This document shows, piece by piece, positions 17,367 through 62,800 of a stretch of DNA of 64,000 nt; the first letter of the stretch is position 1; each line of letters opens with the position of its first letter. The translations under genes were made by a program, and so were the position numbers. Under the pieces are notes generated by a model. It saw only the letters and a program-made list of their open reading frames with translations. It was not told where the DNA came from and made no database searches. Source of the stretch: Protonemura montana (lineage: Eukaryota > Arthropoda > Insecta > Plecoptera > Nemouridae). The stretch is taken from the NCBI GenBank assembly GCA_947568835.1, contig OX387603.1:12238651-12302650 (forward strand). The letters run 5' to 3'.

Positions 17367-18682
17367 GTTGATCGAAACGAACGACTGATTTGCTATTTTC
17401 GAATGGAATGATGGGAAGAAAATTTCGTGACGTCATAATGGCCTAGTTGGGTTAGGTTTAGGATGGATAAATGTTGAAATTTTTTGTCGATTACAAGGTA
17501 AAAGCCTGACAATTTGGTCAAACGACTATCGTTATCAAAGCCAAATAATACGCATCGCTAAAACAATAGAGAAATCAAGTTGTGGAGCTGTTCTCGGGTG
17601 TAGGCCTACCCTGTGAAATGTCGCGACATGAAGGTGAGTGGTACCCCAGTTGCACAGGTCAGAATAATATGTGCCTCGATATAGGCCTATTGATACTGCT
17701 TTCATGGAAGACGAATTGACGGACGTCGTCTCCGCAATATATTTGTCAACATCTTCAATCTGATTTGTTGCTCCAGCATTCAAAATATACCAGTTTGATA
17801 GCAATTAAAGTGGCCTTTTAGGAGCCAAATGCTAAGCCTGCCAGATTAAGATAGGCCTTTACCTATGGTGTTCATTGGCCTATTTTGATTTATACTCTGA
17901 ATGTAATATTGTGTTTGGATTAGAGATGAAAGGACTAACTTATCAGACTGATAAATGTAAGTTTTTTATGAAGTTTCATTGCTCCACTTCAACTAAACCA
18001 TATATATTGCGCGGAAAAATACAGTTGTCGGCAACTGCTTTTGGATGTGGTTGCAGATCCTGTGTATCAAAAGAGAAATTGTAGTATTCTGTTATACGGT
18101 CTCTGGAGACATATGAAAGTTGTTAAACGACAACATCCATTTGATTTGCATCTCAATTGATTTGGATTGCACATGCCTGTGCAAAATCAATTGGAAAGAA
18201 ATGATAGTAGGTACCTAACATGTCTGCCTACTTTGTGATATTTCTTTTTTTACAATCATCAAATTTCTATTGTAAAACACTTAATTAGTGTTCTATTAAA
18301 AATGTGACAGATCATAATTCACGTGCATAAAATTGAGCAGTGTCTGCAGGCACTACTGTTTTTGGTATGAGTTGACTAATTCATTACGCTAAAATGATTT
18401 TTTCCAAGAATCTAAATACTTGTCATGTATATTTTTGGCCGCAATGTGAAGACAGACACTAGGACTCGAGAGCATCTGATTATTATACTCAATATGTAGT
18501 ATAACATTATTGCCAGTCATTTCTCAATACCAAAAAAGCCATATAATTCAGAGTTTGCCTGTAATAGTTCTAGACAAACATGCTACAATGTGGTAATTTC
18601 AAACTTCTTTTGCCTCCACTATTTAATACAACTTTCAGTTATTGAACGTAGGCTTAAATATTCAGGAAAACATTTCTGTTGA
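17015..18682 (+). CDS. Possible nested micro-gene antisense to QDPR intron 1
   Basis: A clean potential first exon (17015-17141) starts in good Kozak context (AACGATGG) and reads [20 protein letters not shown], then [20 protein letters not shown] and KL, ending at a strong donor (A|GTAAGT). A candidate terminal exon at 18639-18682 has a pyrimidine-rich acceptor and keeps phase. It would give 56 aa, ending IERRLKYSGKHFC. The product would be acidic and helical and is not recognised. The second exon is only a guess; the true continuation may lie elsewhere. The model overlaps QDPR exon 1 antisense and the KCMF1 promoter and first exon. Confidence 0.25.
17367..17617. promoter_or_regulatory. Shared divergent promoter region, QDPR / KCMF1
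   Basis: Only 251 bp separate the QDPR start codon (minus, 17366) from the KCMF1 start codon (plus, 17618). Both 5' UTRs and core promoters must fit in or next to this interval, so a bidirectional promoter is likely. No TATA box is evident. Two TAGGCCTA-like motifs occur in and just after the interval (near 17611 and 17678). Confidence 0.55.
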
Positions 18683-21600
18683 AAAATGTGGTTGTGCATA
18701 GTCTGCCAAGCTCTTTGGAAAAATGTAAATAATGCAAGCAACTACTGCTAGGAAAATAAGGATAATAATAAACTATAAGTCAGGAATCCATTCAAAGATT
18801 GCTGATAACAAATGACTGACATTGCTAAAACAGAAAAGTTGTTGAATCTATACATGTGACTATGAGAGAAGTCATTAGAAATAGGCAAAGAATCATATAA
18901 ACAAGCTTATAACCAATAAGCCAGAAATCATAACATTATTACAAATGAAACCTCTTAAAAAGTTAATAAGATGGAAAACCCCTGAACTTTAAATAGATAT
19001 TCATACTCACATATGTAGTACAAAATTGGAATTGTAAAACCAACTTGTCTCCTAGAAATAAAATGTAAATATTACTTTGTTTTGGTAATAGTGAATACTA
19101 TTAATAAGCCACAAAACTGACATAAAAACTGTCATAAATCCTAAACTAGGCTTGGGTTATTGCTTCGAGGTCATTTTACTGTTCCCGTCAGTATGATTGA
19201 AAACTTTTGGAAGCAACTTTCCTTTATGACTTTGTAAATATTACCATCCATGCATGTTAAGTTTAAACCATGTAGTAACTGATCCACCCAGACCAGGAAG
19301 TGCTTTCTTTCATTCACTGAGTACAATGTTCTTTGTTGAAGGAGTAAGCTGCGACGCTTGCCTGAAGGGAAATTTCCGTGGGCGACGGTACAAGTGTCTG
19401 ATTTGCTACGACTACGATCTTTGCGCTACGTGTTACGAGGTTGGCGCCACAACCACTCGACATACCAACGAACATCCCATGCAGTGCATACTCACGCGCT
19501 CTGATTTCGGTTGGTACCACTTTGCACATTAAGCTTTAAGGGAGCCTGAAAAGTTACATTCATATAGTTAAAGATTGCAGGCAGATAATCTTTGTTTGTC
19601 AGAAGTCCAATTTATTATGTTTTTTGTCTAATTTTTGACTAATTTCTGTAATAGTATATGCCCAAACTAGGGATGTTCAAAATATCACTGATTCAATCTA
19701 TGATGTGACTTTCAAATGATTAGCAATGACAAATGTTTGTAGAGTTTTCATTAAGTTATTAAACAGCAGATTCCAGCTTGAAGAAAGCATTGCCAGTTTT
19801 TTATGGGAGTTTCTTTCATAATTTATTTTTAATGAGAATTCTAGATAGAAGGTTTCCTAAATCTCTAGTGTTAACCTGTTTTGTGGTCTCACCATTGCAG
19901 TTTTTTTTTTTTTTTTAGTGTTGTTTAACAGTCATCTGGTTACTGTTTAAATGTCCTATCTGGCACGTTTACATGCACTTTAAGTGCATGTCTTATCTAG
20001 AAAGGAAGTTCACAAGTTGATACCTATTCATAGAATTTGTTGATCCTGTAGTACTCTAGTTAGAACGGCAGGTAAGAATCAACTTGTTTACCTTCTAAGA
20101 CAAATTAGTCGTGATGTGAATAAGATGTCTAGCTTTCAATTTTAGACATCAAAGAAAAATTGCTGATTTTTATTTTCCCAGTGTTGGTAGATTTCTATTG
20201 CCTGTATGGCATAACGTTGACGAAATATCCAGCCAGTGTGTCTAATACAGTTCTTTCCCTTAGACTTGTTCTATGGGGGCGAAGCGCTTACCTTGGAGCA
20301 GCCCCAGGCTTTCACCTGCCCATATTGTGGCAAGATGGGCTACACAGAAACCACGCTTCAAGAACACGTCTCTGCTGACCACACAGAGACCTCGTTTGAA
20401 GTGGTAAGTGGCACACGAGAAGATACACACAATTTATCTTAAATCTCATCAAACTTAACAATACTTACTCTTTCTGAAGTGAGTCTGAACATAAGTATTT
20501 CCTAACTGCTTGGTAATTGTAGCAAATGGTTATCATAAATACATTTTTCATCACCTATTGTAAGGAAGAAGTATACCTCGCAAACAGTTTTGCCAATTGT
20601 TTTGCACATTTTGATAAGTAAAGTTCGGTGTTTGCCGCTTTGTAATGGGAGGGGTAAATGACAGTGCCTTTTAGTCAGATTATTAAACAGATTTCTCTAG
20701 CTAAATAGGTCTAGTATTTACTGAACCTCCCATGATGCTAAACAATTACTGCTATATTTGGTTCTACGTGCAAACAATTGGCTTTGTTGGTAACACTTTC
20801 AATTGGGTTGCCAAGCTATTGTGCATTTACGTTAATTAGGCAGCCATTAATTTTGGTCAGGGAAGTAACTCAAAATTCCAGTATCGTAATGAAGTCTTCA
20901 CCTGAGTTTGGAATAAAACCTCGCTGAATTTGAAGCAAGTGCATACAATGTTGCCTATCTTACCTACTATAAGGTTTAGATTATTTGATATATATGCATG
21001 ATGATGCATGGTGATATATATGCAGTTGTGATAGCTCGTAGTTATATCTTTAGTTAGATAGTAGTGCAGTTATATTCAACGCAAGCAAAGATTCAACGCA
21101 AGCAGACAAATTCAGCAAGCTTACATAAGGCACTAAAATTTTTTTTACCTGCATTTGTATTTGTTTTCATGATAATGCCTGGTTTGTGATAAATCAGTAG
21201 CTATTGTTTAAGCGCAGAGATTAGAAAATATATACAACATACAAAAATTAATGATCAATGTAATGGTGATGTTAACAATAATATCATGCAAGCCTCTTAG
21301 CACAGAATTGTAAATTACTAGAGATAAATATACCAAGCAGCAACTGCAATTTAGGCTTGACAGAAGTGCCACCAAGCCAAGAGGGCAACAGTGAGGCTTA
21401 TTAAAAACATTTTTTGTGACACCTTATATGGATCTCAGAACTGTAAGTCTAGTGGAGGCCCAGCAACCACTATGAAAAAATATCAAAGTGTTTATATTCG
21501 ATCCTGCGTTAGCGCAGCGACAGTCAAGTTTCCCAAAAAGTCAGGACCTGTGCGAACGTGGCGTGAGCGAGTGGTTCCCATCCCGACTTGATTGCCACGG

Positions 21601-24600
21601 TGTTTGTTCCAGGTGTGCCCAGTATGCGCCTCTCTTCCGGGCGGCGATCCCAACTTGGTGACTGACGACTTTGCCGGGCATCTCACCTTGGAGCACCGCA
21701 GTGGACCTCGCGACTTGATTTCGTTCCTCATATCCTTTTACATACTTGCTGTGTAGTGCTTGTGACATATGTGTTAAAAGAGGTTTATTTTGAGAGTGGA
21801 GAGCAGCTGCATTTACTTTCAAGTAATTTTAGCTTTGCTTGCTATGTCACCACGAGTTTCTTTTGAACATTTTTAAAACATTTAAAATATGTGTCTTGCC
21901 GTGGCCTTGATTAACAAGTCTTGCCTTCCATTTATTTTTTGACTCCATGATAATATAACAATTTAATATAATATAATATAATAGGAATATTAATATAATT
22001 TAATAATAAAACAATTTAGGTTTTGGTGATGTAGCAAAATAGCTGGACATTTTTGGTTATATAAAGAATTAGAATTGCTAACTTATGACCTAAAATCTTA
22101 TGACTTTTTTCCTACTGAAAGTGTAAATGTAGATAAGGACAGGACTTCAATTTCTTCCCCACATTAGCGATGCAGTGTTTCAACATGTTTGACTTCTCTT
22201 GTCTGGCTGTCAAAACCGTTCAACTCTAATCACCCGTGGCAAAAAACACAAAAGTTTCTCCTTAACTTCATCGCACGATGAGCCGGCCGGATCTCGCCAC
22301 GGCGTACGCCGGATACCGCACCCGTCGCGCGGCGTGGGTGGTTCACGAACGCGTCGCTCTAACATGCACTTCAGCTCGTCGGGCGGCCTCTCCTCGCTAT
22401 CCCCGTCGAGCCGAGACAACGTAGATCCAATCGCCGAGCTCCTCTCGCAACTGTCTGGCGTTCGCCGGTCAACCACAGCACAGGGGTCGACACCATCTCA
22501 GCTGCAGCAGCTGCAGATGCAGTTGCAGATCGAGAGACAGCAGGTGAGGGTACGCACTCGACCCCTCATTATTTTTGTTTTTTTTGGATGAGTTTTGTTT
22601 CGTGGATGTCATGATGGGAATTCGGGGTTGTTGCTTTTTTATTACAAATTATCTGAAGGACAAGTTCTACTGGAAAAGATGACACTTGAAATACTATCTA
22701 ATGGGATTTTGGGAGGAAGTTCACTCATTTGGAGCTGGTACAAGCCTAGTGGAGAGCAAGACGTCATCAAGCAAGTTTTAAGTTGCCTTTGTCTTTGTTA
22801 ATCATGCTAGGCAATCATTCATAAAAAATAATAATGCATGCGACTGTATAAAAGAATCGCGGGAATTATTTTTTATTGCATGCCTTGTCCTGCACTTGAA
22901 AATAAAACATGGCCGCTCTGATAGCAGGTTAAATCAGGCATTTATCGTTGAGCTGACATTGCCAGTCAAAACTGACTTTTTCTTAGCCCACTCTTGCAGG
23001 CAACAAATCATTGAACATGCTTCATTATTCAGTCTTTTTTCTACCAGACAACAACATGTTTCACTCTTAGATTGCATCTGTATGACTTAATTGAAACAAG
23101 CTGTCCATTTATGGTTAACTTATCATTGGAAAAGAAGCTAGACTGGAAAAATGTCCAACTTAACTGGAATATGATCATATCATTGTCAGAAAATTAATAG
23201 AGCATCAATTCAACAGGATTATGCATGTTTGGTGATTTAATTATGGTTATCATAACGTACAATGTAAATCAAATGTGATAAGGGTATTAGAGTAACGATT
23301 CCTTCACCTCTGTGTGCCCAGGCGGCTAGACAACAACTGGAGCGACTACCGCGAAGACAGCCCCAGACAGCGGCGGCTGCTGGAGGCGGTACGGCTGGGG
23401 CGGCCACGTCGTCGGGCAACGCTTTGGCCAGCGCGATGCTGGAGGTGGCGACTGCATCCACCCAGGCCAGCGCAAGTGCCAACTCCCAGTTCCTGCTCTC
23501 TAGGTTGGTACCGTGCACTGGCTATTGGGCTTATTCCTGGTTTTGCAATTCTGGTCTGCTAGTAGGGTTAACTAATAGCCTGTTACTAAGTTCTTCGTTT
23601 GGTTTTGCACAGTCTAAAAACTAGAACTAATTGGAGTAAAACTTTCATATAATGTCTAAGCTAATTAAAGCTGGCTGATGATCTGCCATTTCAATCGAGC
23701 GCAACCAAAAATTTGTAGAAGGTGCAATAATGTTAAACTTGTAGTCTCCAAGCAAGCTGTATCACAAATGGAACAGAGACTAAGAAATATCATGTAATTT
23801 ATTAACATTCAAGCTTTTGAACACTATTTCTTTTCATATCGCGCAGGTGCATGGAGAGCGCTCTTACGGACACAGAACTGCAGGCCGCCGAGCAAGAGCG
23901 TGCCGACCGTAGCATGTTCGTGCAGGAGCTGGTGCTGTCCACGCTGGCCGAGGGCGCTGCTGCTCTGGCGCTCGAACGTAGCCCGACTGAGAATGAGACC
24001 ACCCTACGCGGTGCGGACTGGCGCGCTAGCCCCGAGGACACAAGCAGCTCGAGCTCGTCGCGAGCGTCGCCTTCTTCCAGCCAGACGTCACTGACCGCGC
24101 AGACGGCACAGCCAAAGACCAATGCCCCTGCGCGTCGCACGTCTCGTGGCGCCCTATCTCGCGGATCGGCGCATGCCCTGCGCGGGGCCGTCCCAGCACC
24201 GCAGCAGGTTAGCTTTTGCTAATTCTTATTCTAGGGTAACTTCTTGAGACGAAGTGAGGCACCTTTGATTACTATCTGGCAAGTGGTAATTATGACCTCT
24301 TATCTTCAAAGGTTCTTTAGAATGAGTGGTTGTTTGTTGCCTGCCCCAACCTGACATGCATTGCCATGCCTGAAACTACACTACGCGTTTCTCTTAATAT
24401 TAGGAAACAATTTTTAATTTAATTTCCAACTTTGACTTTTAGAGTTTTTTTCTCTTATCATTGCACTGAATGCTGACGTTCCATCTACCAGGAAAATATT
24501 CTTTCTAATTGCTTTATTCTGTATTCTTGTTACCAATTTCAAAGCCATTTTGTTAAGACTGAAGTGACCTTCTTGTTCTTGATTAGCCTCCCAGGCTTGC

Positions 24601-24971
24601 TACCAAGACTTTTTTGCTATCCTGCTGCAATTTGCCCAGTAGCAGGTTGGCTTATAAAAATAAATCTCAGTAGAAGTTGGTACCTTCATTGTAAAGCTTT
24701 ACATTTATAAATGAATTGCCACTCACTTGCGCCAACATTGTCAAGTGCACTAACGCCGGTTTTATTGTGTTGCCAGATCCCAGTGCGCATGGTGACCGGC
24801 ACGGGAACAATCCGAGAAGTGGTGCCCGCCGCCGGTGGTGGTGGGGGTGGCAGCTACGGAGGACGGGGGGCAGGCAGAGGTGGGGCGGTGTCGCCAGGAG
24901 CCACTCGGAGGAAGCCCGTTCGGCCCGTCGAGGGCAGGAACCAGGCTACCGAGCCCCCGCCCCCTCACTAA
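17618..24971 (+). CDS. KCMF1: E3 ubiquitin ligase KCMF1 (ZZ-type and C2H2 zinc fingers)
   Basis: Eight exons (17618-17633, 19342-19509, 20264-20403, 21613-21729, 22277-22543, 23322-23503, 23847-24207, 24777-24971) join in phase to 481 aa; the human protein has 381. The tiny first exon encodes MSRHEG, as in animal orthologues. A ZZ zinc finger (CDACLKGNFRGRRYKCLICYD begins near residue 9) is followed by a C2H2 finger (CPYCGKMGYTETTLQEH, about 80-101) and CPVCASLPGGDPN. The conserved RRSNMHF, DPIAELLSQLSGVRRS, QLQQLQMQLQ coiled coil and ERADRSMFVQELVLSTL blocks come next. KCMF1 works with UBR4 in ubiquitin-dependent turnover and stress signalling. The extra length is a Ser-rich and Gly/Arg-rich C-terminus (GGGGGGSYGGRGAGRGG). 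Intron 4 (21730-22276) has AT-AC ends and a U12-type branch site; all others are GT-AG. Confidence 0.94.
21730..22276 (+). other. KCMF1: U12-type AT-AC intron in KCMF1
   Basis: No GT donor restores the reading frame between the exon ending PRDLISFL and the one starting DEPAGSRHGVRR. The intron instead begins ATATCCTTTT, the minor-spliceosome 5' consensus, and ends in AC. CTCCTTAAC (branch A near 22264-22265) lies 11-12 nt before the end, matching the U12 branch consensus at the expected distance. Splicing here gives phase 0 and continuous KCMF1 homology. Confidence 0.88.
23135..23153 (+). repeat. Copy of SINE tail segment
   Basis: This 19-bp string (AAGCTAGACTGGAAAAATG) is identical to 15349-15367, next to the tRNA-like repeat in the QDPR intron. 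No tRNA-like head is recognisable beside this copy, so it may be a truncated or eroded element in a KCMF1 intron. Confidence 0.4.
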
Positions 24972-26722
24972 CGCCACGCCCGATCAAGCTTTCTAGTCCC
25001 CGACGCTTAGACGATTACCTTCTCCGCTATCCCACACATCCTTCGATGTCCAGGTGGACGTGAGTTTTTTATCATTATTATTCTTTCTCCTTGTATGAAA
25101 TTTGCCCGAAGAGAATAAAGTTGGTGAGACTTAGCGGGGGTGAATGGATCGCATTGTGTTAACTAAATAGACGTATGGCGTAGGCTAGTTGAGCAAGTTT
25201 CTTTTGGATTTGGATGTGGGTGCCGTGAGGAGGAGGGGGGTCGTCGTGAGCGTTACGATTCTTACGTTGGCTCTTTGAGGTGGGGAGCAGGATCTTATGA
25301 ACTATTATATAATCAAACGTGTAAACTTTGTAAATACCGGGGGAATATTATTATGCATTACCACTAAGTGTGCAAGGTGATGATGTACTATTTAAAAAGA
25401 AAACATTAATCCTTAAATGACTGTAAACAAATTACCTATGAGAATACCTACTCGCAGACTAGTACCTGTCATTTCAATTCAGTAGAAGCATACACTTTTG
25501 ATTGTTATTATTTGTGTTTTGTTAATAAACTCTGCAATTCTTTCTGGTAAAATGCAACCTTTGGTCTGGCCAACTTTTGTTGCCTCGTGTAAAGCTTGTT
25601 ATACGTGTGCTGCGTGAACGTTGCTGATGCCTGCTCGTGTGATCAGATTGTGAGCGTGAGGCCATCTCTGATTTTAACTGGTTTCTTGTTCACAACCAAA
25701 ATTGTTTCCTTGTTGGTGGAAATGATGCAGGGTGCTCCGTAACCAAAATATGTATTTTTAATAGTAAGTGCTAGGATTTCTTTTCTCGTAAAAAGTGAAT
25801 TTACTAGCAATAATAACATTTCTTCTTGTTGCATTGCATAAGTTTCCGTCTATACTGTTTTAGTGTCAGTTTGTGTGTTGCACTGGGCATTGAAAAAAGA
25901 TGTTACAGAACTTTGAAATATGAGTAAAGCTTTGTTTCTATTTTATAAGTGATGTAATAGGCTTATAGCCACTACCCATTACAAAAATTTGCGTTATTTG
26001 GAGAAGTTTGTTTCCTAAACTTAATATACTTTAAGTCTGTAATCTTCAAATATGTTGTTATTAAATTGAATCCAGGAAAATTTGTAGCACAGAAACATCA
26101 CTTCACTGTGTAGTGTGTACAATTCTTTATGTTTTCATGCCCTGTAAGCAATGAAACTACTAGTTACTTTCTAAAAGATATTAGAGTAAATACCTAAGCA
26201 GGCATAGCGTTTGGTGAGCGGCAGCAAAAGTTAGTTTGGACGTGGAAATAAACTTGTTGAAAAAAAAGTACCCTAGATGATTTGTCTTCAATGCAAGTAG
26301 TTAGGATTTAAAAAAGAGTTCTATCTAGTTACACGTAAAATTGATCAAGATCCCATTTCTTTCAGTGGGGAGGTAGTTCTGCATTAGCTCCATATTTGGG
26401 TATTACGCACAGTGCGCATGCATTTCGTAACATACAGAGTAAGAAAGACTACTAAAAGTGATAAGTTTTGTCGAAATTTTCATATTTGATATTAATATGG
26501 CTCGCTCATCTAAAAACTTGTCTGTAAAGTAGGTTGATGTTCACACTTAACCGGTCAATGGTATGGATATGATCGTATTTTCGCGCCTATTTAGTAGAGG
26601 GCAATAACCCTTTGGGCCAGGGTTCGACTCCCGTCGTCGATATGATTCCCCGGAATTTCTAACCTTACTCTTTGTAAATTTTTTGACAGAAGCCGTTCGG
26701 CAGTTTAAAGTTGGTTTAAAAG
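24972..26722. other. KCMF1 3' UTR and KCMF1-PIGO spacer
   Basis: No gene. Candidate AATAAA poly(A) signals for KCMF1 lie at 25114-25119 and 25524-25529. A tRNA-like B box (GGTTCGACTCC, 26621-26631) sits about 90 bp before PIGO. The rest is AT-rich. PIGO's promoter and 5' UTR should lie in the last few hundred bases; no TATA box is assigned. Confidence 0.6.
26586..26650 (+). repeat. tRNA-like fragment (A and B boxes)
   Basis: A TTTAGTAGAGGGC A-box-like motif and a consensus B box (GGTTCGACTCC at 26621) are spaced as in a tRNA, and the T stem has three GGG-CCC pairs. The acceptor stem does not close. Most likely a decayed tRNA-derived repeat just upstream of PIGO. Confidence 0.4.
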
Positions 26723-29700
26723 ATGGAACTTCATTGGAAGTACTTTTTATTTCTAGTGTGGATTTCCTATTTATTAGTTTCGGGTGTGTTATTGTTTTCC
26801 CGGGGATTTCTCCTCAATCGCAAGAGTCAACCTGACAAAACATTCTGCAAATTATCGAAGTGTAGGGACGGGGACGGACACTCCGAGTATGTTAATACCA
26901 AACAAGCCTTCAACCAAACGGAAAGTGACTCAAGACATTGTGATCGAGTAGATTCTGACTTGTGGAAAAGCATTGGCCATAATGACAATGTGGTATTGCC
27001 GTGTCTTTCGAGTGAAACCAAAGTGTTGTTAATTGTAATCGATGCTCTGAAATATGACTTTGCTGACTTTGTTGTGCATTTGAAAGATTCCGAACTTCAT
27101 CCATATCAAAACAAGCTGACAGTAATTCATGAATTGTTGGAAGAACAGCCAAGTCACTCTAAACTTTATAAGTTTATTGCAGACCCCCCAACAACTACTA
27201 TGCAAAGATTGAAAGGACTGACGACAGGAAGTCTGCCAACTTTTATAGACTTGGGCTCAAATTTTGCTACTCCTGAAATAAATGAAGACAATTTTCTTGA
27301 TCAACTACGATATCAGAATAAAAGTATTGTTTTCATGGGAGACGATACATGGGCAGGCTTGTATCCCAATCGCTTTTTGCGCGAGTATTCATTTCCTTCT
27401 TTCAACGTCTGGGATTTGGATTCAGTAGACTTCGGAATCATGAAGAATCTCTTCACAGAAATTGGCAAAGGAGACTGGAGTTTGCTTATAGCACATTTCC
27501 TTGGTGTTGATCACTGCGGCCACAGGTATGGACCATTTCATAGTGAGATGAGCCGTAAGCTGATGGAAATGAACAGCATGATCACAAAAGTGATTGAAGC
27601 AATGGACGATGACACTGTCCTGATTGTGGTTGGAGATCATGGGATGACGGCTTCAGGTGGGTCATACAATGGTAATGCTAAAATATAATTTAGACTAGCT
27701 TGGTGGCTTCTTAGCTCTCACAGTGTGCTCAAAAAATGAGCTTGGGATGATTTGATTGAGTTGGTTCACTTTATAAACACCATAAATATATAAAAGATCA
27801 TACAAAAAATTAAGTTTTATAAATATATATATATAGACTTTTTTTAAGGAAACAAATTTTTTTGTGTACTTTTAATTAAAATCAGCACTTTATTTGTGAA
27901 TCTTAAAATAAATAATAATGTCGCCAACCAGCGTTGCGTTAGAACCGTTGTAACTTGTAAGAGAAAAGAATTTCTCTTTTCTAAGGTTGTACCATCGTCA
28001 CTGAACGGAAAACATTTAAACATTTACTAGAATTATGGATGTTTTGATACGTCCGATCCAACAGAATTTAGGGTCCTCGAGGCTTGGCCAGACACGGTTT
28101 TTAGATCACACTAATGGCTACTGATCGAGTGACTTTCCGAACAGAAATGTAGCGGTGGACAGGGGATCGGTCACTTTTAAAACTCGCAGACTCTTGTGCT
28201 GTTTTATACCTAGCTTGTTCTGCTTTTATCTGTGTTTATACCTCTCTTCACTTAGCTTATCGTCATAATTTCAACAGTACTTTTATTGGAAACCAACAAA
28301 AATGATTCCCTTTTTTGTAAGATATTTCTTTCAAGAGATTTTGGCAGCTAATTGATTTTACCCAGATATTGTCTTGCTTGCCTTATTCATAGAAAAAGAT
28401 GGCACCTTGCCCAGCCTTAGTACTTTATTACAGCTTAAAACATTTATAAAAATGTTTATAAAAATAAAACTTTATCTTGAATGTGGTGTTCCATGGAACA
28501 ATCCATTATTTCTGCTTGCCATATTGCAGGCGATCACGGTGGTGACAGCGACAGCGAGATAACAGCGGCTATGTTTGTTCACTCTCATCGACCACTAACA
28601 TCGAGCGTTCCAAACGAGGAACCAATTGTGAGCCAAGTCGATTTGGTTCCCACCGTCGCTGCCCTGCTCGGTCTTCCCATGCCGTTCTCCAACCTGGGGG
28701 CTGTCGTTCTGGATGCCCTCCCACTCACCCCCTGGCCAAACCTGCTCGAAATTGTGTGGCTCAACGTCCGACAAGTCACTCACTATGTTCGACAATACGC
28801 AGAACACTCACGCCTCTTTTCTCACGAACAAATAGTCACTGTAACCGAACGGTACGATACGCTTTGGGCAAAAGTTGCTCAAGTGAAGGACACAAAAGGA
28901 TTCGTTGAATTTGCAGCACAAGCAAAGTTGCATGTGACCGAGCTCAAAGCAATGTGCGCGCAAGTTTGGGTGCAATTCGATGCTGACGCGATGTTTCAAG
29001 GACTTTTGGTGACATTCATTACGTTGTTCGTCGTGTTTGTTCTAATTGCGGGTATCCCTGGTGATGTGCTTCGAGATCGTCTGGGAAGCATTCTTGCTGC
29101 AGGATACGGCGGAGTGTTTTTGTCAGGAATTGCGAGTGTACTCACAGCGTCTGCTGGTCTTGTTGACAGTCTCGAACTGACTTTTTACTTTACGAGTGGC
29201 ATGATCTCTATCGTAGTTTTGTCGTCTGTAGTAATAAAGCATTGGCTGAGCATCGCTGAAAAACTTCATGAGCAACAGCAGGTATCCGATTGGACGGGAT
29301 TTGCAGCAAGATTTATCTTAATGTTCAGTCTCGCCGGATCATTCTCTAACAGTTACGTTATCGAAGAAGCAGCCGTATCATCATTTTTCCTTCTCTCGAT
29401 GGTTTGGCTTCTTGTTTTAAGCTTTAAGTCGGTCAAGGAAAGCTTTGCGACGAGGACAAAAGAAGTAGAAAGCCAGACAGCATCCTGGTTCAAGCTAAAG
29501 TCGAACGAAACAAGATGGACACTTGTCGGATTGGCGATTGTATTTAGCATTCTTATTCGAATGTCTCGGTATTACTGGAAGTGTCGGGAAGAGCAACCAG
29601 AATGCACGACTCGGGCTTCAACCAAATCTCCCAGTGGTCGATATCGGCAGGTATGCATTCAGTTTTCACAGCATTAATCATATGATTCCAAAACATCTGT

Positions 29701-32700
29701 AAATTAGCTCTGTAACCCACAATACCAAGAGCTTTGCCTGATTCCAGTCAATCCATAACTAGAACTGATCTCTTAAATGTAAATTGATTTGGGAAAAGTT
29801 AAGGTGGGGTAAATACCAAATATTTGGAAAGAACACATTATGGCAAGCTAGTCTTATACTTAATGTTTGTGGAAGGAAAATCGGCATACAAGTCTTATTT
29901 TAGAACTTATAACTTATAAACAGGTACAAAAAAATCACTTAAACCACCTTACTCATTGTGTGGAAACCTTAAAAAACTTGCTTTGTTTTCGTAGGCCGAG
30001 TGTCTGCTGACGCTGGTATGTGTGGCGCTTTTGGTGACTGCGGTGAGAATCTGGTTGAGAACGCGGGGTAACTTAGTCGGCTGGTCTGCCACGCAGCTTC
30101 TTGCGCGGTACGCGCCATCAGTGCTTGTCGTCTGTACAGGCGGTTACTGGATTGCTCAGTGTCTCACCAAGGTGAGTAGCAATTTGGACATTGGCATACT
30201 TACAGTTTTTGTTGCTAGGAAATTACGTAGTTTGTGATCACATTATATTAATAGGCTATTTTACATGATAACACTTTCAAATAGAATAGAATAGAATAGA
30301 ATAGAATAGAATAGAATAGGAGTTTATTTACAACTTTGGAAAACATTAAATGGAATGAACACATTTTTCTTCCTGTTGGTTGCAATAAATTGTAGATTTA
30401 AAAACTAGATTAACTAGAAAACTAGATTAAGTAGTTTTGTAATACTCGTGGTAGGTAACTAAAAGTCTTTTGCAGATTTGATTTTACTCATTTTCTTTCT
30501 GGGGATATTGTTCCAATCTCTTATTGTTCTGCCAATCAATGAGAAACGACCCAGGTCCGTCTTGTACCTGGGCAGAAACAGTTTTCTGTCGTGGTCTCCT
30601 CTCCCAGCGAATGTTCTTGTCTTGACACGCTCTGCGAGTTCTTTCCATGCCGGTTCTCCAGAGAGGGCTTTGAAGAGGTACCGTAGTCGGACTGAGCGTC
30701 TTCTGTCAACCAGTGATGGCCATTGGAGCATCGCCAAGATTTTTGTTACACTAGTCCAAGGTTTCTTCTTTGCCTTGGAACAGCGTTTCATCTTGTTGGT
30801 CACAAATCTCGCTGCTCTTCTCTGAACCATTTCTACTAAATGTGTTTGTGCATCTGAGTGAGGGTCCCACACTCCTGAGCAATACTCTATCGTAGGTCGG
30901 ATGAGACATTTGTAAGCGTGCTCCTTGGTTTTCAGGGCGCTACCTTTTAAGTTTCGCTCGATGAAGTTTGTGTTCCGCTTTGCTCTTGATACCATTTTGG
31001 TGATATGGTTATTCCAACTGAGATCCTGGGTGAGAGTGACACCTAAGTATTTGACAGAGTCACTTTTTGGTATGTGCGCTCCATCCAGTACATACGATGT
31101 GTCGATACTCTTTTTTTTTCTTGTAAAACTTATAATGTTTGTTTTTGCGTTGTTCAGTTTCATGCCATTTTCTTGTACCCATTTGTTGATTTGGGTTAGG
31201 TCAATTTGAAGTTTTTCTGAGTCTGCCTTACATTTAATTGCTGAGTAAAGGATGCAGTCGTCTGCAAAGAGGCGGACTCGTGAAGCAGTATTTTGAGCTA
31301 TGCTGTTTATGAATCCTATGAACAGTGTTGGTCCCAATACCGTTCCCTGTACTACGCCTGATGTGACATGGGCGGGTGTGGACTTCGAATTTCCTACTTC
31401 TACTACCTGTGTTCGCCCAGTGAGAAAAGCTTGTATCCAATTTACCACCCGCGAGTCCAATCCCATGGCTGCAAACTTTTCAATGAGTAGCTTGTGGGGA
31501 ACCACATCGAAAGCCTTTGAGAAATCCAGCAGAATAGCGTCCACTTGCCCCCCTTTGTCCAGCTCCTCTGCTAATTCTTGTGTAAAGCAGGCTAGTGAGG
31601 ATTCACATGAGTACCCCTTCCGAAAACCATTTTGGTTTTCGAACAACCAGTTTTCCTTAGACCAGGTAGTGTGGATGTAGTTTGTTATCAATCTTTCAAA
31701 TATCTTGCATGAAATTGCTGTATTGCTGATTGGTCTGTAAGTTGTCGGATTGTTTTTTGGTCCATTTTTGTAAATAGGATGGATTGTAGCAGAGCTCCAG
31801 TCGCTTGGTAATTGACAGTTGTTTATGGACATGGAGAAAATAAGATGTAGGTATGGGATGATTTCATTTCTACAGGTTTTCAGCATTTGCGATGTTACTC
31901 CATCTGGTCCTGTGCCGGTGTTGAACCTGATCTTCTTCAGGGCAAGATATATTGACTTGCTACTGAATGTGAAGCTAGGGGTGGATTCCAGTGTAGGTGT
32001 CCTGGTGTTTTTTTGCGTGTTGGTACTAAGCACCCACGTTGTGTCTGTGCTGAAGACCTTTTTGTACGTTTCACTCAGCATGTTTGCTTTATCACCGTCT
32101 GTTGTTGCTTCCGTGTTATGCATTAGTAGGGCAGGAATTTGATTTGATCCTCCTTTTTTGGCATTTATGTGCTTGTAGAACCTACTCCAATTTCCAGGGC
32201 GTTTAACATCTAGTAGGGTGTGCAGATGTGAATTTAGGGCAGTGATCTTGGCTAGATTTAATTTGCTTTTAAGGTTCTGGAAGACATTCTTCTTAATTTT
32301 CCGATTTTTGTACGCTTTTCGGCATTTCTTAATTAGTTGAGTTACTTCTCTGTTATAGTAGTTAGGATTTGGATTCTTTTTTCTGAGTTTCTTTGGGACA
32401 AAGTTTTGTTTAGCATAATCTAGGATCTTTTTAAACTCGGTCCAGTATGTGTTTACATCTCCAGACTGGGTGCTCCATTTTGCTGCTTGCTTTTTAGGTG
32501 GTCCATGATGCTTTGCACGTCCGCTTTCCTATACATCCATAGTACCTTACGTGGTAAGCTTTTGTCAGATTCACTGTTTACTTTGATTTCGAGGGCGATA
32601 AGCTTATGGTCACTTATCCCGTTCTCTATAGAGCTTTCTGTCCATATGTCCGGTGGAGTAACCAGAAACACATCAAGTATGTTATTACCATCATGTGTTG

Positions 32701-35700
32701 GTTCGGTGATTACCTGTAACATGTCGTGCTCATCAAGTATTGTGTTTACTGCCATTTGTGCGAGGCAGGTGGAGTACTGTGTCTTCCACGACACATGAGG
32801 TAGATTTAGGTCTCCTCCGATGACAATTGGGTGGAGTTTGTCTCCACCCATTGTTAAGCAATTTAACTGGTTATTTAGAGCGGATAGGAAAGAGACTGCA
32901 TTACAGCTGTGGGGGCGGTACGCTCCAAAATACTTATTTTGTGAACACATTTTTGTTCAACAAAATTCGTTAAAGTTGCAACAATATTGAAACAAAGCAA
33001 TTTTGTCTTATAAGTGTAATAAATAAACAATGCCCCAAGTTTAGTGGACCGTTGCTTTTTTACTTTTTAGTAATCACAAAATGACCAAAAAAAATATACA
33101 TAGCAAAATTTACAAAGAAATTTGATACCTCTTGATCTAGAGCTACATTCAAAGCTCTAAACTCTTCCTGTGTCCAGGTGGCCAAGACCAAGCTGTTCCT
33201 GCCATGGCAGCTGCAGTATCTCCCTTGGGTGGTTTATGCAGTTGTCGCCATTACGCTTGTCTGTCTGCTGATCGACCCTCTATGCGTATACATCATGCCT
33301 CCACACGGAAACCTCTCTGCAATGCATCTGCAGGTAACTATTCAACAATCAGAATAGCTATAAAATAGGCTCAACATTTTCTGGCAAGTATGCTCCTTAG
33401 ACTGTATACCATGCCATGTGCTCAGTACCTGCGTATATCTCATTCGCTGTTCGAAATCCACAAAACTAAACATTTCCCGTGCCGACTATTCTATGACTCC
33501 ACTGTTTGTTTATTTTATTGTGCAGCTGTACCAATGAATAGCACCAACACATGCTAAAATTCAGTATCTCAATGTTTTGCTGTTTTAGGGCAACAAAATC
33601 CCTGCTCTCTTCCGCGAAGCAAAAAGAGTGCTTGGGTCATCGGGGCACGAAGGTCACATGCCGATGGTGTACGGTCTTGCCACCGTCTACAGCTCGGCAT
33701 TCATCGTGCTCTGCCTGTTCACGTTGTTGCTGTTTGCGCTTGTGCTCGGTGACGTGCTTGCACCAGCAGCCGTTATCATGTTCACAGCAGGAGGTGTTCT
33801 GATTGCCGTGCTCGCAATTGTGAGGCTAGATAGCGTTCTACTTGCTGGTGAGGACAAGATAAGTGTAATTCAGGAAACATTATCAAGACTGGGTTTTGAA
33901 TGCGTTTTTTAAATTGATTGTATGGAATTGAGTGTCAAAGTTGTGGTTAAGTTTTAAAAAATGTTAGCTTTATCACTCAAGTTTGGTTTGCTACATAAAT
34001 CAGATAAACACTCTACCAAAATATTGGTTGAACTGGTCAAAATTACTACCATCAGATTCATAATTACATAATTGGGTGCCCGCTGCACCATGGGGACATT
34101 ACATTACAATCGTTATTCTGTTCGAACGTAGGCCAACTCTTCCATGTGCCGTGGTTTTCCGTAATCTGCTGGGCATTCTTCTCGTCGTATTTCTTCTACG
34201 GAACCGGGCACCAGCCAGCCTTCCCTGGTGAGTAGCTGATATTCTCTTTTGTACTTAGGTGCATCGCTTTCATTGTAAAACTTATTTTTATTTGTACTTG
34301 TTCAAAAGTAAAGTACTAATATGTAAAGATTTTTGCTCCTTTGCTCAATCCAGCTCTTTCAGTGTTTGTTTATAATTTAATGTAAAAGAGTGCCTAGAGT
34401 TTGAGTTTGTGCCTAGAGTCAGATTAGTTCCAACAGATCATTTTGGAGTAGAGTAGAGTAGTTAACGTTTACCTGGTGGTGTAAGTTGGTGCTAGCATTT
34501 TTTGTAAACGTATTATTTTTTAAAATTATTTACAGCTTACGAAACTAAAGTGAAACTAACATTTACAACTAAATATACATTGGGAGGCATTTACAGTGGT
34601 TAAAAAAATATTCAAGATGATCTACTGTACTCTGAACTAATTTATTCTGATCTGCCCTGGTCCAACAAAATTCTGACACTTCCAAACAATTCCGTTATTC
34701 TGTCGTTATTCTGAGTGGTTCAGTAAAATTGTTTAAATTTATCCTAACAGTCAGCATAATGTCACAAATCTGATATGCTAATTATAAATTTACAGCGATC
34801 CACTGGGAGGCAGCATTTGTTGGTTCAGGCGGTCAGATCAACAGTCACGTGATGCCAGCCGTGTTGGTGACGATCAACACCTTCGGCGCGCAGGTGGTGG
34901 CGGCGCTGGCTTTGCCGCTGCTGCTGATTGCACCGCTGACCATTGCCAGTGTATGGCCTGCGCTGGCCAACGACGACACTCGTCGCGGAGAGATGGCGTT
35001 GTTTGAACGACGGTCGCTACTTGACTCGGGGCTCTTTTTACTGTGCGCTAAGTTTGTCCTGGTGCTGGGATTGAAGGTGAGTTTGCTTGAGTTTGAGGCT
35101 TGAAAGCTGTACTAGGAAAGAAAGGTACCTACTGATGTACTTTGTTAGACTTCAGAAGAAATACAACCTACCAAAGTTGCAAACAGTTAAAATTCTAAAA
35201 GTTGTAATTTTTCAATTTTGGTAGTTTTGTTTCTTTGTTCCTCTTTTCCATTAGATGGTGTGGCCCTTTCCCACTCTTACCATTACTTTTAAGAGGTAAG
35301 AGTGACTAATGGCTGGTAAATGAATTGGAGCAGAGGTAAGAAGGAAATGCAACTTTTCAAAGTAGAACTTCGTGACTTGCAAAATATGAAACAAGAAGCC
35401 ATGACGTTTTAATTCCATATTTTTCTTCTTTTGCAATTGGGCTATTTCTACCTCATTATGTTGCATTCCTTCTTTCCTTCTTTTGCAGTAACCAATAATT
35501 CCTAAAGTACATTTTCTAAATGTTAAAAACATTTCAATTGCATTTTGAAGAAAAGCATATTGTCAAAGACTGCTGAAGCTTACTCTATAAAACCACTTTC
35601 ATGTTGTTCCATTTTGCATTCTGCATTGATGGGCATTCTTTACAATGCATAAAGTTAAACTTGCTGTTCAAGGCTCAAGACAGGACTGAAGACGAAGAGA

Positions 35701-38199: not shown

Positions 38200-39009
38200 T
38201 CACCGCCGACCACTTCGTGATTTCCTCTTCGAGCTTGTCCTGAAACAGAAAATGTCCATAAGGAAAGGAAAACGGTCAACTTAAAATAATAACTTGCAGA
38301 TCAAATATATCATGATCTCAAGTAATTTAACAAATCATCCATACTTCTTGGGTCCCTTGACGAAACACCAGTCGACACTGATTTGCTGACCAAGAATTTC
38401 CGAGCCATTGAGTGCCTCGCGGGCAAGTTGCGCCTCCTTGAAAGACTCGTATTCGACAAGTGCATAACCCTGAACAAACATAAATTACATAAATACTTTA
38501 TTAAATATGCTCTTGAGGCAAATTAATAAATGGGAGAATACATTTTAGCCAGATACGCACCTTTAAGAATCCTGTACGTCTGTCGAGGTTTAGATGGATG
38601 TTCTTTATCTCTCCATATTCAGAAAATTTCTCCTGGATGTCATCCTCTTGAGCTTCTTCATGTACAGATGTCACATAGAGAATCCAGCCCTCCACCGATC
38701 GCTGTGGACCTGGCACTGCACCATCGCCATCAACGGCCATCGTTTCATAATCTCGGATGTTCTCACGTGCAGAATGTTCAGCTCCGAAACCACGGCCCTT
38801 CCTCTTCTTAACCTTTTCCTTCAAACGAGCGATGCCCTCTAGAATAGTAACATTACAAATGTCAATGTGGTGCACTGAACTAAAATGAAGGGTTTAAAAT
38901 TGTTTAGGGTATTGTAAGTGTAAATAGTTTTGGAGGTTAGGCACTTACGATCACCATCGTCATCGACTTCGAATTCTTCGGCATTATCGATATCAAGAAC
39001 GTCAGCCAT
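38200..39009 (-). CDS. RBM8A: RNA-binding protein 8A (Y14, exon junction complex)
   Basis: Four exons in gene order (39009-38949, 38838-38561, 38469-38345, 38239-38200) join in phase to 167 aa; human RBM8A has 174. Y14 pairs with Magoh in the exon junction complex, marks spliced junctions in nuclear mRNA, and acts in mRNA localisation and nonsense-mediated decay. The sequence shows the acidic N-terminus [20 protein letters not shown], the basic [14 protein letters not shown] patch, [20 protein letters not shown] (RNP2 region), [20 protein letters not shown] (RNP1 at about 110-117), [11 protein letters not shown], and a short Ser/Arg-basic tail (KRKSRSGRR). The RRM spans about residues 72-148. 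The start is the first ATG and matches the family N-terminus. Confidence 0.95.
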
Positions 39010-41025: not shown

Positions 41026-42748
41026 TTTGAAGTTAATTAGTCATCTAGACTCATTATTTTATGTGCAATTAATATTTACTGCTTCCATGACTGCAGAAAC
41101 CTGTGTGCCTGGTAAGAACCATCCATCTTTTGACTATCAAGGGGCAGATTTTTTAAAACCAATGTATGTTATATTAATTTTTTAACAGGTACAATTTTAA
41201 ACAACGCATGGCAATTACAATTCCAAATGGTCTATTACCTCATTTTTTCTCATCATTCGCTTCTTCTTTGATACTAACTTCTCCCAATTTTCTTGTCTTT
41301 TTCTTCATCATTAAACACGATTCCCGCCTCTCTATTTCCCATACAATATTTCTTGATATTCTTTCCTCGCTTATTTTCCCATACTTTCCAAACAATTTTA
41401 ACTTTATAGTTTCTTTGCCTATTTTTAAACCATTGTCTAACATTTGGGTAGAAGATAATTTGCAAAAACTAAATTCCTGACCAAAATAAAACTCCCACAC
41501 TTGAAGTGATTGATCACCAACCAATACCCAAAATCCCCAAAAGTCCAACCGCTTGAGACGAATGACTACTTGGGATTCATCTTGAGTTTTATCTTGACTC
41601 AAAATTCCAGCCGGAAAGAGAAGACAGATCTGAGCAACTCTCTGATGGCAATTATTTTGGTACCATGCACGAACTTCTTCGGGCTACATTTCAAATTATC
41701 TCATGCCATATGAGTTCTCCCTATTTGCAAAAATTACCCTTGCGACGTGTGAAACGACGTTTATACGGAAGTGATCGACAATTTGCAGATATATCCCAGG
41801 CAATTGCATGCAGACACGATTTAAATTATAATTTCCAAACATAGATCGGCCTCTCTTTCCGCTTTGAATTTGAAACCAATTAAATTACTTTTTAAAGTCT
41901 ACCCAATTTTCTTGACCAAGTACCAGAACCACACAACTACAATCTAACAGATGTGATAATTTAATTGCTTTTACTATGAATGAAATATATTTATTGAAAT
42001 AAAATAAACTAGACCGAAAAGCATGATAATGAAAATCTCACATTTTAATCGTCGGCCTAACTTACTAATTACTGACTTACGGTTCAATGTCAGTGGGTTA
42101 AATTGAGCGTCTGTCAGTCAATGCTCTTTACACTTTTCACCGATTTCCCAGCAAAAAATTACACGATTCCTTAATTCCCAACAACTTGTTAATAATGATT
42201 AAAACTTTTTTGTTTAAATACCCAGCATATCCGGCCACGCCATATCAAACTAAACGGGCTATTAATTTTATGCTTCTTCGTGGCACGCTTTTGAATCATC
42301 TTTTAAGACTTTTGATCCTCAGGGCAAGGGCGAGTCCTCTTTCCTTGCAAGATATGTTTGGCACTGAGCTGGTAAGTAAAACTGGCAATGGCTAGACATG
42401 GTAAGAAACGGTTGATATGGATTTTCCTTACATCGATGTTAAACAAGATACTGCCAATCGTCTTGATAATAAAGATTGACAGAAGATCAACGTTAGATCA
42501 ATAAATTTATAGTCACGCACGATTTACAAATCTAATGTGTTAGAAATAAGATCGTTAGCATATTTAAACAGTTTATACTATACCGACTCCGATACAGATT
42601 TAACAAAAAATTCTTATAAAGAAAACCGTCCCCTTGTCAACTGGACAATTAATCAACATCATAACTAATCATAGATCTGTCAACCAGCGGGAAATCATCC
42701 CTAATGAATCCTTCACTAGCAATAAGACTACAGCGGTTCTAATGATTA

Positions 42749-59313: not shown

Positions 59314-59718
59314 TCAGCGCCTACCAAAACAAAAAGGGGTGAAAGTCATCTTGTTCTGGTTTGAAAAACTGTTCACAAGTTCGAGCAGCCGCCTTTCGAC
59401 AGATTTAGTCGCTGCTCGACGAAGTTTTTCCGCACCCGCGGTCACAAGAAACGCAGACTGAAAAAAATAACCCATTCGTTCAAACATCGTCTGGCTTGAT
59501 CTTATTCCCGACAAGGCACGGTTTATTGTGTCGTCATTCGCTACACCATGGGGCGTTGCATCTTGTACCATTGGGTGTAACGCACATTGTTCAATGTAAC
59601 ATTTATTAAGCTTCGTCACAAGCATCTCACTGCCCTTAATTGGCCAATGACATTGAGTAATAACCTGGTTGTGGTAGGTTCTGCTGTCGCGAAGTAGTGA
59701 AGGAAGCCATATCCTCAT
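59314..59718 (-). CDS. Unrecognised 134-aa ORF
   Basis: A single uninterrupted ATG-to-stop frame on minus, just upstream of and divergent from the secreted-protein coding exon. The composition is mixed, with a few Cys and a basic, helical C-terminus (EKLRRAATKSVERRLLELV). No signal peptide, domain or family is recognised. It may be a transposon remnant, an orphan gene or chance. It lies inside the inferred first intron. Confidence 0.22.
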   Translation of the reverse strand: MRIWLPSLLRDSRTYHNQVITQCHWPIKGSEMLVTKLNKCYIEQCALHPMVQDATPHGVANDDTINRALSGIRSSQTMFERMGYFFQSAFLVTAGAEKLRRAATKSVERRLLELVNSFSNQNKMTFTPFCFGRR

Positions 59719-59805
59719 ACTTCATTGCCTTCGTAACCCAGACGCAAATCTAGTCAGATATAAAATGAAGCAGACTTTTGCTAAAACTTCGCCTTCTGAT
59801 TACAG

Positions 59806-62800
59806 CGCCCGCGCACACATCTCGGCCATGGGCCTGCCAGCTGCGCGTCTCCTGGCGCTGTCGCTTGCGCTCGCCGCCGCCAGCGCCGTCACCAACGACG
59901 CCCCGCGCTGGAGCCGCTCATCCTCCGACTGGATTCCAGTCCCCCGCGCAGTCGAGCCTGCCGTCCCCCGGTCAGCCGAGTCGCTAATTGCTGCCGAGTC
60001 TAGCCACGTGGGTAGCCTACTGACACCACCGCTACCCCAGGCCCTCGCCTTCGCACAGCCGCCCACCTTCCAGCCGCACAAACCGTTCCGCGAACCTCCG
60101 AGACAACTGCACGCCGCACCCACGCAGCACCAGTTCGTTCCGCAGCGCGAATTCGCGCAGTTCCCACCGCTGCGCACGCAGCAGTTTGGCTCAAACGCAC
60201 AGCGATTCCATGATGTCCGTCCATCGCCGCAGGCTGCTGAGCAAAACCAGCTGTTCTCGTACGAGAACTCAAATGGACAGCAGTTCCAAGGACAGGACAA
60301 CGCTGACCCCGCGACAAACTCCATCAACCAATTTCAAACCAACCAGTTCCAAGGCAACCAGTTCCAGCAGTTCCTAAGCGACGTCCAGGCACAGACCGCT
60401 GCTCCCCAGCGTCATCCTGTGCAACATACGAGCCCGTCGTCGGTTGGCGTAGAGGAGCAGAAACCGGACGTGCAGCTAGTGTACGTGCCAGTGGAGACAC
60501 TGCGTCAGCGGCAGGCGGCGTTGACCAGCACGACAACGACCAACGCACCGGTCACCACGACCAAGCCAGTACCGCACCAGCCACCACTGTCCGTTTACAT
60601 GGGCAAGGAGGGACATCTCGTCAACATCGCCGACGTCATTAAGGTGCTGAAAGACGCCAAGTCCATCGCCGTCCTGAACAGCGTCGGTCCCGACACCCCG
60701 CAGGTGTTCGTCGGTCCGTCGAACCTGAATCCTCCAGACAGCTACGCGAAGTTCGAGCTGCCGTACTTGTCATCGATCGAATCAAACCGTGTCGAGCGTA
60801 AGGTTGACCAGTTGCCATTTTTTGTGGCACCGTTGAACTTCAAGCCGCCGCCGGGATACTCGAAGATTCCGTTCCCAGCGCCCCACATTGGGTCGGTGGT
60901 TATTAGTAACCAGACCGAGGCGTTGAATTCGCAGGTGACGCCGTCAGCGCAGACGCTCGACGAGTACCTGGTGGAGGCGTCGAGGGGGCAGCACAGACAG
61001 CACCGGTTCCAGGAACCAGCGACGGCGACGGCGAACTCTGTTCAGCAAGGGGACGTCTTTTTGACGCCGAACCACGAGCAAAACAGGCAGACAAACCATC
61101 TAGCGGAACAGGAACAGCAGCTACCTGTCGTGAGACAGGAGACGCCGTTCCGTCAGCAAAATCATCAGCAAAACCAGCAACAACAACTTCCATTCGTCAG
61201 GCAAGAGTCGCAGTTCCACCAGCAACCCCAGGAGCAACAGGTCGAAGCCACAGCCGCGCCTCAAGAACAGTTCCAGCAGCAGCTCCCCCGCTTCCACCAG
61301 AACCAGCCGTTCCACCAAAACCAGTTCCACCAAAACCAACAGTTCCAGCCAAACCAACCGTTCCACCAAGCGCAACAATTCCAACAAACACCAACACCAT
61401 TCCCTGAACACTTCCAGTCAAGCACGCCGTTCCCATCGCAGTCCCACTTCCAGCAGCCCGGCCAGTTCTCCCAGAACTCCCAGTTCCCTCACAACCAGTT
61501 CCAGCCGTCGCCCCCCGCACCCCATTTCTTCCAGCACGTCACGCAGCCCGCCCCTGCTGCGCATGACTTTACCCCCAGCTCTTTCATCACCCAGAGCCCC
61601 CGGTTCCCCTCGCACTTCTCCACGCAATCAGCCACCGAAGCAGCCCCGGAAGTGAACCAGGAAGCCGTCGAACAACCCCAGGAAGAAGAGGAGGTTACCA
61701 CGCAAGCCCCCCGCCGACCTACCCAACGCACACGCCCTCGCACTACTCAGGCGCCTCCCGTCGAAGAAGAGCCATTGACGACTACTCGAAGACCTTACCA
61801 GCGGCGTCGCCCTGTGCACACCCGAGTCCAGGAAAGCGTGCAGACGGACGGGCAGGGCGAGGATCAGCAACGCATCAACTCGCCCCGTCCGCGCATCCGC
61901 AACTCGCACCGCGTGGTCGGCCATCGGCTGCCTGCGTTCCACAAGACCGAAGGGCAGCAGGAGCAGCAGCAGGAGCAGCACGCGGTCAGGACGGTGACGC
62001 ACAGGGCAAGGCCCCAGCAGGCGTTCACGACCGAGTCGACGACAACGACCGAAGTAACGTCGGAAGAGGTGGGTAACAAACGATACCTGATGCTAGATCT
62101 GTTTGAGACAGCTACTGGTATCATGAGCAAGGATTCGCGTTTCCGCTTATGTAGATTTTTACGATAGCTTGATCTCTTGTTCTTCAGTCAAATGGAACAC
62201 ACATTTCGGACTAGTTTGCGACGCCAGTAGCTTGCTCTCGGAATGTATTTGATGAGTGACACTCAATTATAATCGATGTTGCAGATCCAGTACCAACCGC
62301 AGCCGCAGCCGCAAGAACAAGACGGTGGCCTCAGCGTGGACCAGGGTTTGACCCTCGGCTTCCAAAACGCGTTGCTTCACTCCCCAACCCGCGGACCCCT
62401 CACCGACTACCAACAGCCCCCACAACGCGTCGCAGCAGAGATCCCCCAGCCCCAGGAAGAGCAACCCCTAGAAGCTCAGCAAGAATATGTACCACAGCAA
62501 CATGTGCAGCAACAAGAGGTGCTGCCCGAAGCCCAGCCAGTGCCGACGACCACGCACCGCGCAGAGTTCCACCGACAGCGCAGCCAGTTTTCTGCGCCGG
62601 CACGTACTCAGCAGCTCGACGGAATGCCACGTTTTGAGGTGCCTGTCAAAGTATCTGTCCAAAGACAAACAGAGGCGCCGCTGCCCGAAGACACGCCCCG
62701 ACCAGTCTTCTTGCGAACCCGTGGGCAGGTTCGACCCCCTCCAGCCCAAAGGCCTGCCGAGGTCGCCGCCGAAGAGCCCGAGGAGGAGTATGGTTTCCTT

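Follow-up and report, generated by a model that had tools for sequence, protein, structure and literature searches.

The question raised by this locus is whether a gene in the 64-kb stretch of arthropod DNA analysed here (the window), which appears to encode the ubiquitin ligase KCMF1, carries an AT-AC intron of the U12 type that would be removed by the minor spliceosome, or a major-spliceosome intron with other borders. The gene model comprises eight exons encoding 481 amino acids (window positions 17618–24971, forward strand) and seven introns, six of them GT-AG and one, the fourth, AT-AC. Its parts, with the evidence for each in brackets, are the following.

17618–17633, forward strand: putative exon 1 of KCMF1 (MSRHE), ATGTCGCGACATGAAG followed by gtgagt, joined in frame to exon 2
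19342–19509, forward strand: exon 2, encoding the ZZ zinc finger (phmmer against KCMF1 of the PDB, E = 3.6e-32; Pfam ZZ)
20264–20403, forward strand: exon 3 (GT-AG borders, frame, alignment with KCMF1 of the PDB)
21613–21729, forward strand: exon 4, last residues GPRDLISFL (frame, alignment)
21718–21729, forward strand: 12-nt stretch ATTTCGTTCCTC encoding ISFL, 7/12 to the donor and without counterpart in KCMF1 of the PDB (alignment)
21730–22276, forward strand: predicted AT-AC intron of the U12 type, intron 4 of 7, 547 nt, phase 0 (motifs, frame, pair statistics)
21730–21739, forward strand: U12-type 5' splice site ATATCCTTTT (motif, pairing with U6atac)
22258–22266, forward strand: U12 branch-point sequence CTCCTTAAC, branch A at 22264 or 22265 (motif, pairing with U12)
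22275–22276, forward strand: 3' splice site AC (11–12 nt past the branch A)
22277–22543, forward strand: exon 5, first letters DEPAGSRHGVRR (alignment, frame)
23322–23503, forward strand: exon 6 (frame, GT-AG borders)
23847–24207, forward strand: exon 7 (frame, GT-AG borders)
24777–24971, forward strand: exon 8, ending in PPPPH and a stop codon (frame, AG acceptor)

The identity of the host gene, given as KCMF1 in the initial annotation, is borne out by homology. A 173-aa query spanning the AT-AC intron aligned along its entire length with its best matches, the KCMF1 chains in the PDB (9hxw and others; E = 1.8e-72), which we take to be human, and also matched the worm kcmf-1 chain 9hyf (E = 7.1e-06); the protein contains the Pfam domains ZZ and zf-Di19. 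Exons 2–8 are based on frame and borders, and up to exon 5 on homology as well. Exon 1 was placed with a pattern built on the KCMF1 N-terminus, and an in-frame ATG just 5' of exon 2 (MFFVEGVSC) provides a possible alternative start. When the first 236 residues were searched against the organism's own 258-Mb assembly (G000; 258,480,905 bases in 34 contigs), eight matches were returned, four being the gene's own exons and four being weaker and restricted to the ZZ region; no second copy or retrocopy of KCMF1 was detected with this query. Relatives were likewise not confirmed by tblastn in pattern-selected stretches (104 viral, 241 from genomes) of the other collections searched, which is expected, since these hold no animal genomes.

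The exon ahead of the intron ends in TTCCTC, the intron opens with ATATCCTTTT at position 21730 and closes with GCAC at 22276, and the following exon resumes with GATGAG; joining 21729 to 22277 keeps the frame and yields the junction protein PRDLISFL/DEPAGSRH. The consensus of U12-type introns is RTATCCTTT at the donor and TTCCTTAAC at the branch site. Against this consensus, the donor matches at all ten of ten positions and the branch motif CTCCTTAAC at eight of nine. The location of this motif at 22258–22266 places the branch A either 12 nt (22264) or 11 nt (22265) from the last intron base, and by eye the 3' end of the intron (GTGGCAAAAAACACAAAAGTTTCTCCTTAACTTCATCGCAC) has no distinct polypyrimidine tract. 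In U12 introns the optimum for the distance from branch point to 3' splice site is 11–13 nt, a distinct pyrimidine tract is typically lacking, and either A of the branch motif can be used (PMC3584512). Donor, branch sequence, branch distance, the absence of a pyrimidine tract and the presence of minor snRNA genes in the organism (see below) thus all agree with a U12-type AT-AC intron. The borders proposed in the initial annotation prove exact at the sequence level, and motif matching upholds the signals it had named: the donor, a branch motif 11–12 nt from the end and a terminal AC.

Taken singly, neither motif is rarer than chance: RTATCCTTT occurs once in the window (1.27 expected) and TCCTTRAC three times (3.82 expected). 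Strict pairs were defined as a perfect donor followed within 60–3000 nt by a branch motif with at most one mismatch, itself 9–13 nt before matching termini. The window contains one such pair, and 60 first-order Markov simulations, serving as the null, gave means per 64 kb (both strands) of 0.067 for AT-AC pairs and 0.167 for AT-AC and GT-AG pairs together. This pair coincides with the exon junction that yields the conserved KCMF1 protein. When one donor mismatch was also allowed, three pairs were observed against 2.95 expected, so that only the strict pair carries weight. The two further lenient pairs, at 24496–26029 and 41356–42185, each have a single donor mismatch and a single mismatch in the branch motif.

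Genes for the minor-spliceosome RNAs are present in the same assembly. U12 (113.9 bits), U6atac (99.6 bits), U11 (92.7 bits) and two copies of U4atac (74.9 and 65.2 bits) all score above their Rfam cut-offs, and the same searches found no minor snRNA in 14 control genomes. Both U4atac-like genes (L021 and L022) are situated on one contig (C2), and one of them is more divergent. In RNAduplex calculations, the donor (21730–21739) pairs with the 5' end of the organism's own U6atac at −8.2 kcal/mol. The branch motif (22258–22266) pairs with its own U12, also at −8.2 kcal/mol, with a single unpaired base, read as A, between two helices.

An AT-AC intron in KCMF1 is already known from other animals. 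CG11984/KCMF1 is listed as AT-AC, intron 3 of 6 in the fly, and of the U12 type in both fly and human (PMC2831892, Table 2), and CG11984 is also named among the fly U12 genes in PMC2952598. The same table gives nineteen fly U12 introns, of which we count nine AT-AC rows against the eight stated in the paper's text, and sixteen human U12 orthologues share their subtype with the fly introns (PMC2831892). The intron described here has the gene, the U12 type and the AT-AC subtype in common with its Drosophila and human counterparts; compared by gene, intron number and termini, it differs from the Drosophila intron (3 of 6) in being number 4 of 7 in the gene model. Because the same AT-AC subtype is listed for fly and human, the KCMF1 AT-AC intron counts as conserved and its presence here is unsurprising, the present case being one further instance of it. 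By contrast, U2-type AT-AC introns, as found in sodium channel genes, share the termini and carry G at position +5 (PMC2831892); the KCMF1 intron has C at this position, together with a U12 branch motif.

Frame-keeping AT-AC introns with U12 signals were found in all three genes examined from the fly–human list, namely KCMF1, PHB2 and STX6. In PHB2 (locus L024 of the same assembly), the intron starts with ATATCCTTTC at position 3950, contains GTTCTTAAC (7/9) and ends in AC at 4329, giving a length of 380 nt; the joined protein, EAAKM/LGQA, and Prohibitin-2 of the PDB align with no gap where the exons meet, in contrast to the KCMF1 junction with its ISFL residues. In STX6 (locus L025, reverse strand, same assembly; gene assigned by PF09177), the intron of 178 nt has ATATCCTTTT, TTCCTTAAC and a terminal AC, and the joined frame reads DLDDTISIVEKNP, with a split serine codon. 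The introns of PHB2 and STX6 thus resemble that of KCMF1 in being AT-AC, in having a ATATCCTTT donor and in carrying a TTAAC-type branch motif near the terminal AC.

Could other borders explain the locus equally well? Enumeration of donors at 21640–21899 and acceptors at 22150–22419 gave 944 pairs, of which 102 stay in frame without a stop (38 AT-AC, 32 GT-AC, 12 GC-AG, 12 GT-AG and 8 AT-AG). Frame alone therefore does not pick 21730/22276, since 24 GT-AG or GC-AG pairs and 38 AT-AC pairs keep it. The initial annotation had held that no GT-AG choice restores the conserved frame; this was too strong, because twelve GT-AG pairs do maintain a frame, and what stands is that none of them among the 944 pairs restores the conserved junction. 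The same is true of all 24 frame-keeping GT-AG and GC-AG pairs, the very pairs that would allow an intron removed by the major spliceosome: each either drops conserved residues or adds intron-coded ones. The closest GT-AG reading (21723/22254) would put SLTSSH in place of L and use a poor donor, GTTCCT, and a GT-AG intron would leave the U12 signals unexplained, all of which makes it very improbable. It is scarcely credible that the motifs are chance occurrences in a KCMF1 gene that is no longer functional: although a window of this size should contain the donor motif by itself about once, the 481-aa frame is open across eight exons, conservation is strong and a second copy was not detected.

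Another reading retains an AT-AC intron and the acceptor at 22276 and moves the donor 12 nt upstream, to 21718 (ATTTCGTTCC), so that ISFL would be intronic. This pair is also in frame, it reproduces the PRDL/DEPAG arrangement as in KCMF1 of the PDB, and its donor pairs only slightly less well with U6atac (−7.3 against −8.2 kcal/mol). However, the stretch at 21718 matches the consensus at 6/10 positions (hand count), whereas a 10/10 donor sits 12 nt downstream, and over its first nine bases every difference from that donor falls on a third codon position, the pattern that coding sequence would show. We consider it very unlikely that 21718 is the donor in use.

Motifs, frame, homology, the genes for four minor snRNAs and the two sister introns instead make it almost certain that the known AT-AC U12-type intron of KCMF1 has its arthropod orthologue at 21730–22276, which by its sequence is a predicted substrate of the minor spliceosome. 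The assignment to this machinery made in the initial annotation is thus supported by sequence, homology and snRNA genes. ATATCCTTTT would be recognised by U11 and then by U6atac, and CTCCTTAAC would base-pair with U12 such that an A bulges out to serve as the branch nucleotide. Joining of 21729 to 22277 by the minor spliceosome would give an in-frame KCMF1 message and make production of the ubiquitin ligase dependent on minor splicing. This dependence may be incomplete, since in flies the Kcmf1-a intron is still partly spliced upon disruption of the minor spliceosome (PMC7644725).

The four codons directly before the donor deserve separate consideration. KCMF1 of the PDB reads PRDL-DESSG where the protein described here reads PRDL-ISFL-DEPAG, the exon ahead of the donor thus having four extra codons. 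The ISFL stretch ATTTCGTTCCTC and the donor ATATCCTTTTAC are identical at seven of twelve positions, and as the mismatches within their first nine bases are confined to third codon positions, both read I-S-F. ISF is hence also what the U12 donor encodes in this phase, the donor itself reading ISFY; at the fourth codon CTC faces TAC, with mismatches at positions 1 and 2. The KCMF1 protein contains ISF a single time, with an expectation from composition of 3.9e-05 per site. When codons of the gene were drawn at random, the match to the donor at codon positions 1 and 2 of the first three codons was obtained in 8.75e-05 of draws, and a match of at least 7/12 in 0.5%; the likeness was picked post hoc and is modest at the nucleotide level, with two others among 478 in-frame 12-mers of the coding sequence reaching 7/12. 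In simulated sequence, adjacent 12-mers match at seven or more positions at 1.7% of sites, and 3.4% of sites match the consensus at 6/10 or better.

A tentative explanation, which we regard as possible though doubtful, is that two U12 donors once stood in tandem and in frame, whether through a 12-nt duplication or through look-alike codons. This arthropod would use the downstream copy, with the upstream copy surviving as the exon codons I-S-F-L, weakened at third positions, and with vertebrate KCMF1 lacking them. The comparison, of one arthropod gene with one vertebrate protein, suggests that different lineages use different copies of a once-tandem donor, and gives no direction of change. Such a mechanism has a precedent of its kind, in that a 2010 paper cited in PMC7730772 reportedly described novel intron positions in Drosophila genes that arose through sliding or tandem duplication. 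Intron sliding is regarded as at most very rare (PMC10639083). A slide of the KCMF1 donor is not described in the available portions of PMC10639083 and PMC7730772, and a literature search for the string PRDLISFLDE returned no match; the donor slide may be the only part of the present case that is new.

The remainder of the window and of the assembly yielded several further observations. An Rfam scan of the 64-kb window gave no matches, and a tRNA scan of it with bacterial settings gave none either. The gene adjoining KCMF1 on the forward strand (26720–30237), which is probably PIGO, has a phosphodiesterase domain (PF01663) followed by frames that appear membrane-spanning by eye, with no Pfam match in 28481–29674. 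The reverse strand harbors the remains of a non-LTR retrotransposon at 30459–32956, in two adjoining frames (reverse transcriptase PF00078, E = 8.5e-37; endonuclease PF14529, E = 3.5e-10), and an RRM exon at 38501–38893 (PF00076, E = 1.2e-05), which we take to resemble RBM8A/Y14. A stop-to-stop frame of 829 aa on the forward strand (59678–62167), rich in Gln, Pro and Phe by eye and without a Pfam match, continues into the window's GC-rich end (58–60% GC). TTAGG telomeres are typical of arthropods, and TTAGG arrays are abundant in the assembly: a pattern of five repeats gave 7938 + 7633 (15571) overlapping matches, and its backward control 1 + 0. The matches listed include arrays at several places of contig C1, for example at 916562–916656, 963644–963948, 1042484–1042583, 1101522–1101646 and 11637666–11638095 (L011 and L012); these arrays may be telomere repeats in interstitial positions, or elements that target telomeres.

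A survey of more than 3000 genomes reported strong losses in several arthropod groups (PMC10639083), and its main text does not mention KCMF1. The lineage studied here keeps the full set of minor-snRNA genes together with three or more AT-AC introns that carry U12 signals, and one more arthropod is added to a minor intron common to fly and human. If the tandem-donor explanation of the ISFL codons were true, the donor of the KCMF1 minor intron would have slid by 12 nt within the reading frame, the abandoned splice site would persist as protein sequence, and vertebrate introns would begin with ATATCCTT right after PRDL and have a second donor-like stretch 12 nt further on. The locus would then allow the sliding of a minor intron to be traced.
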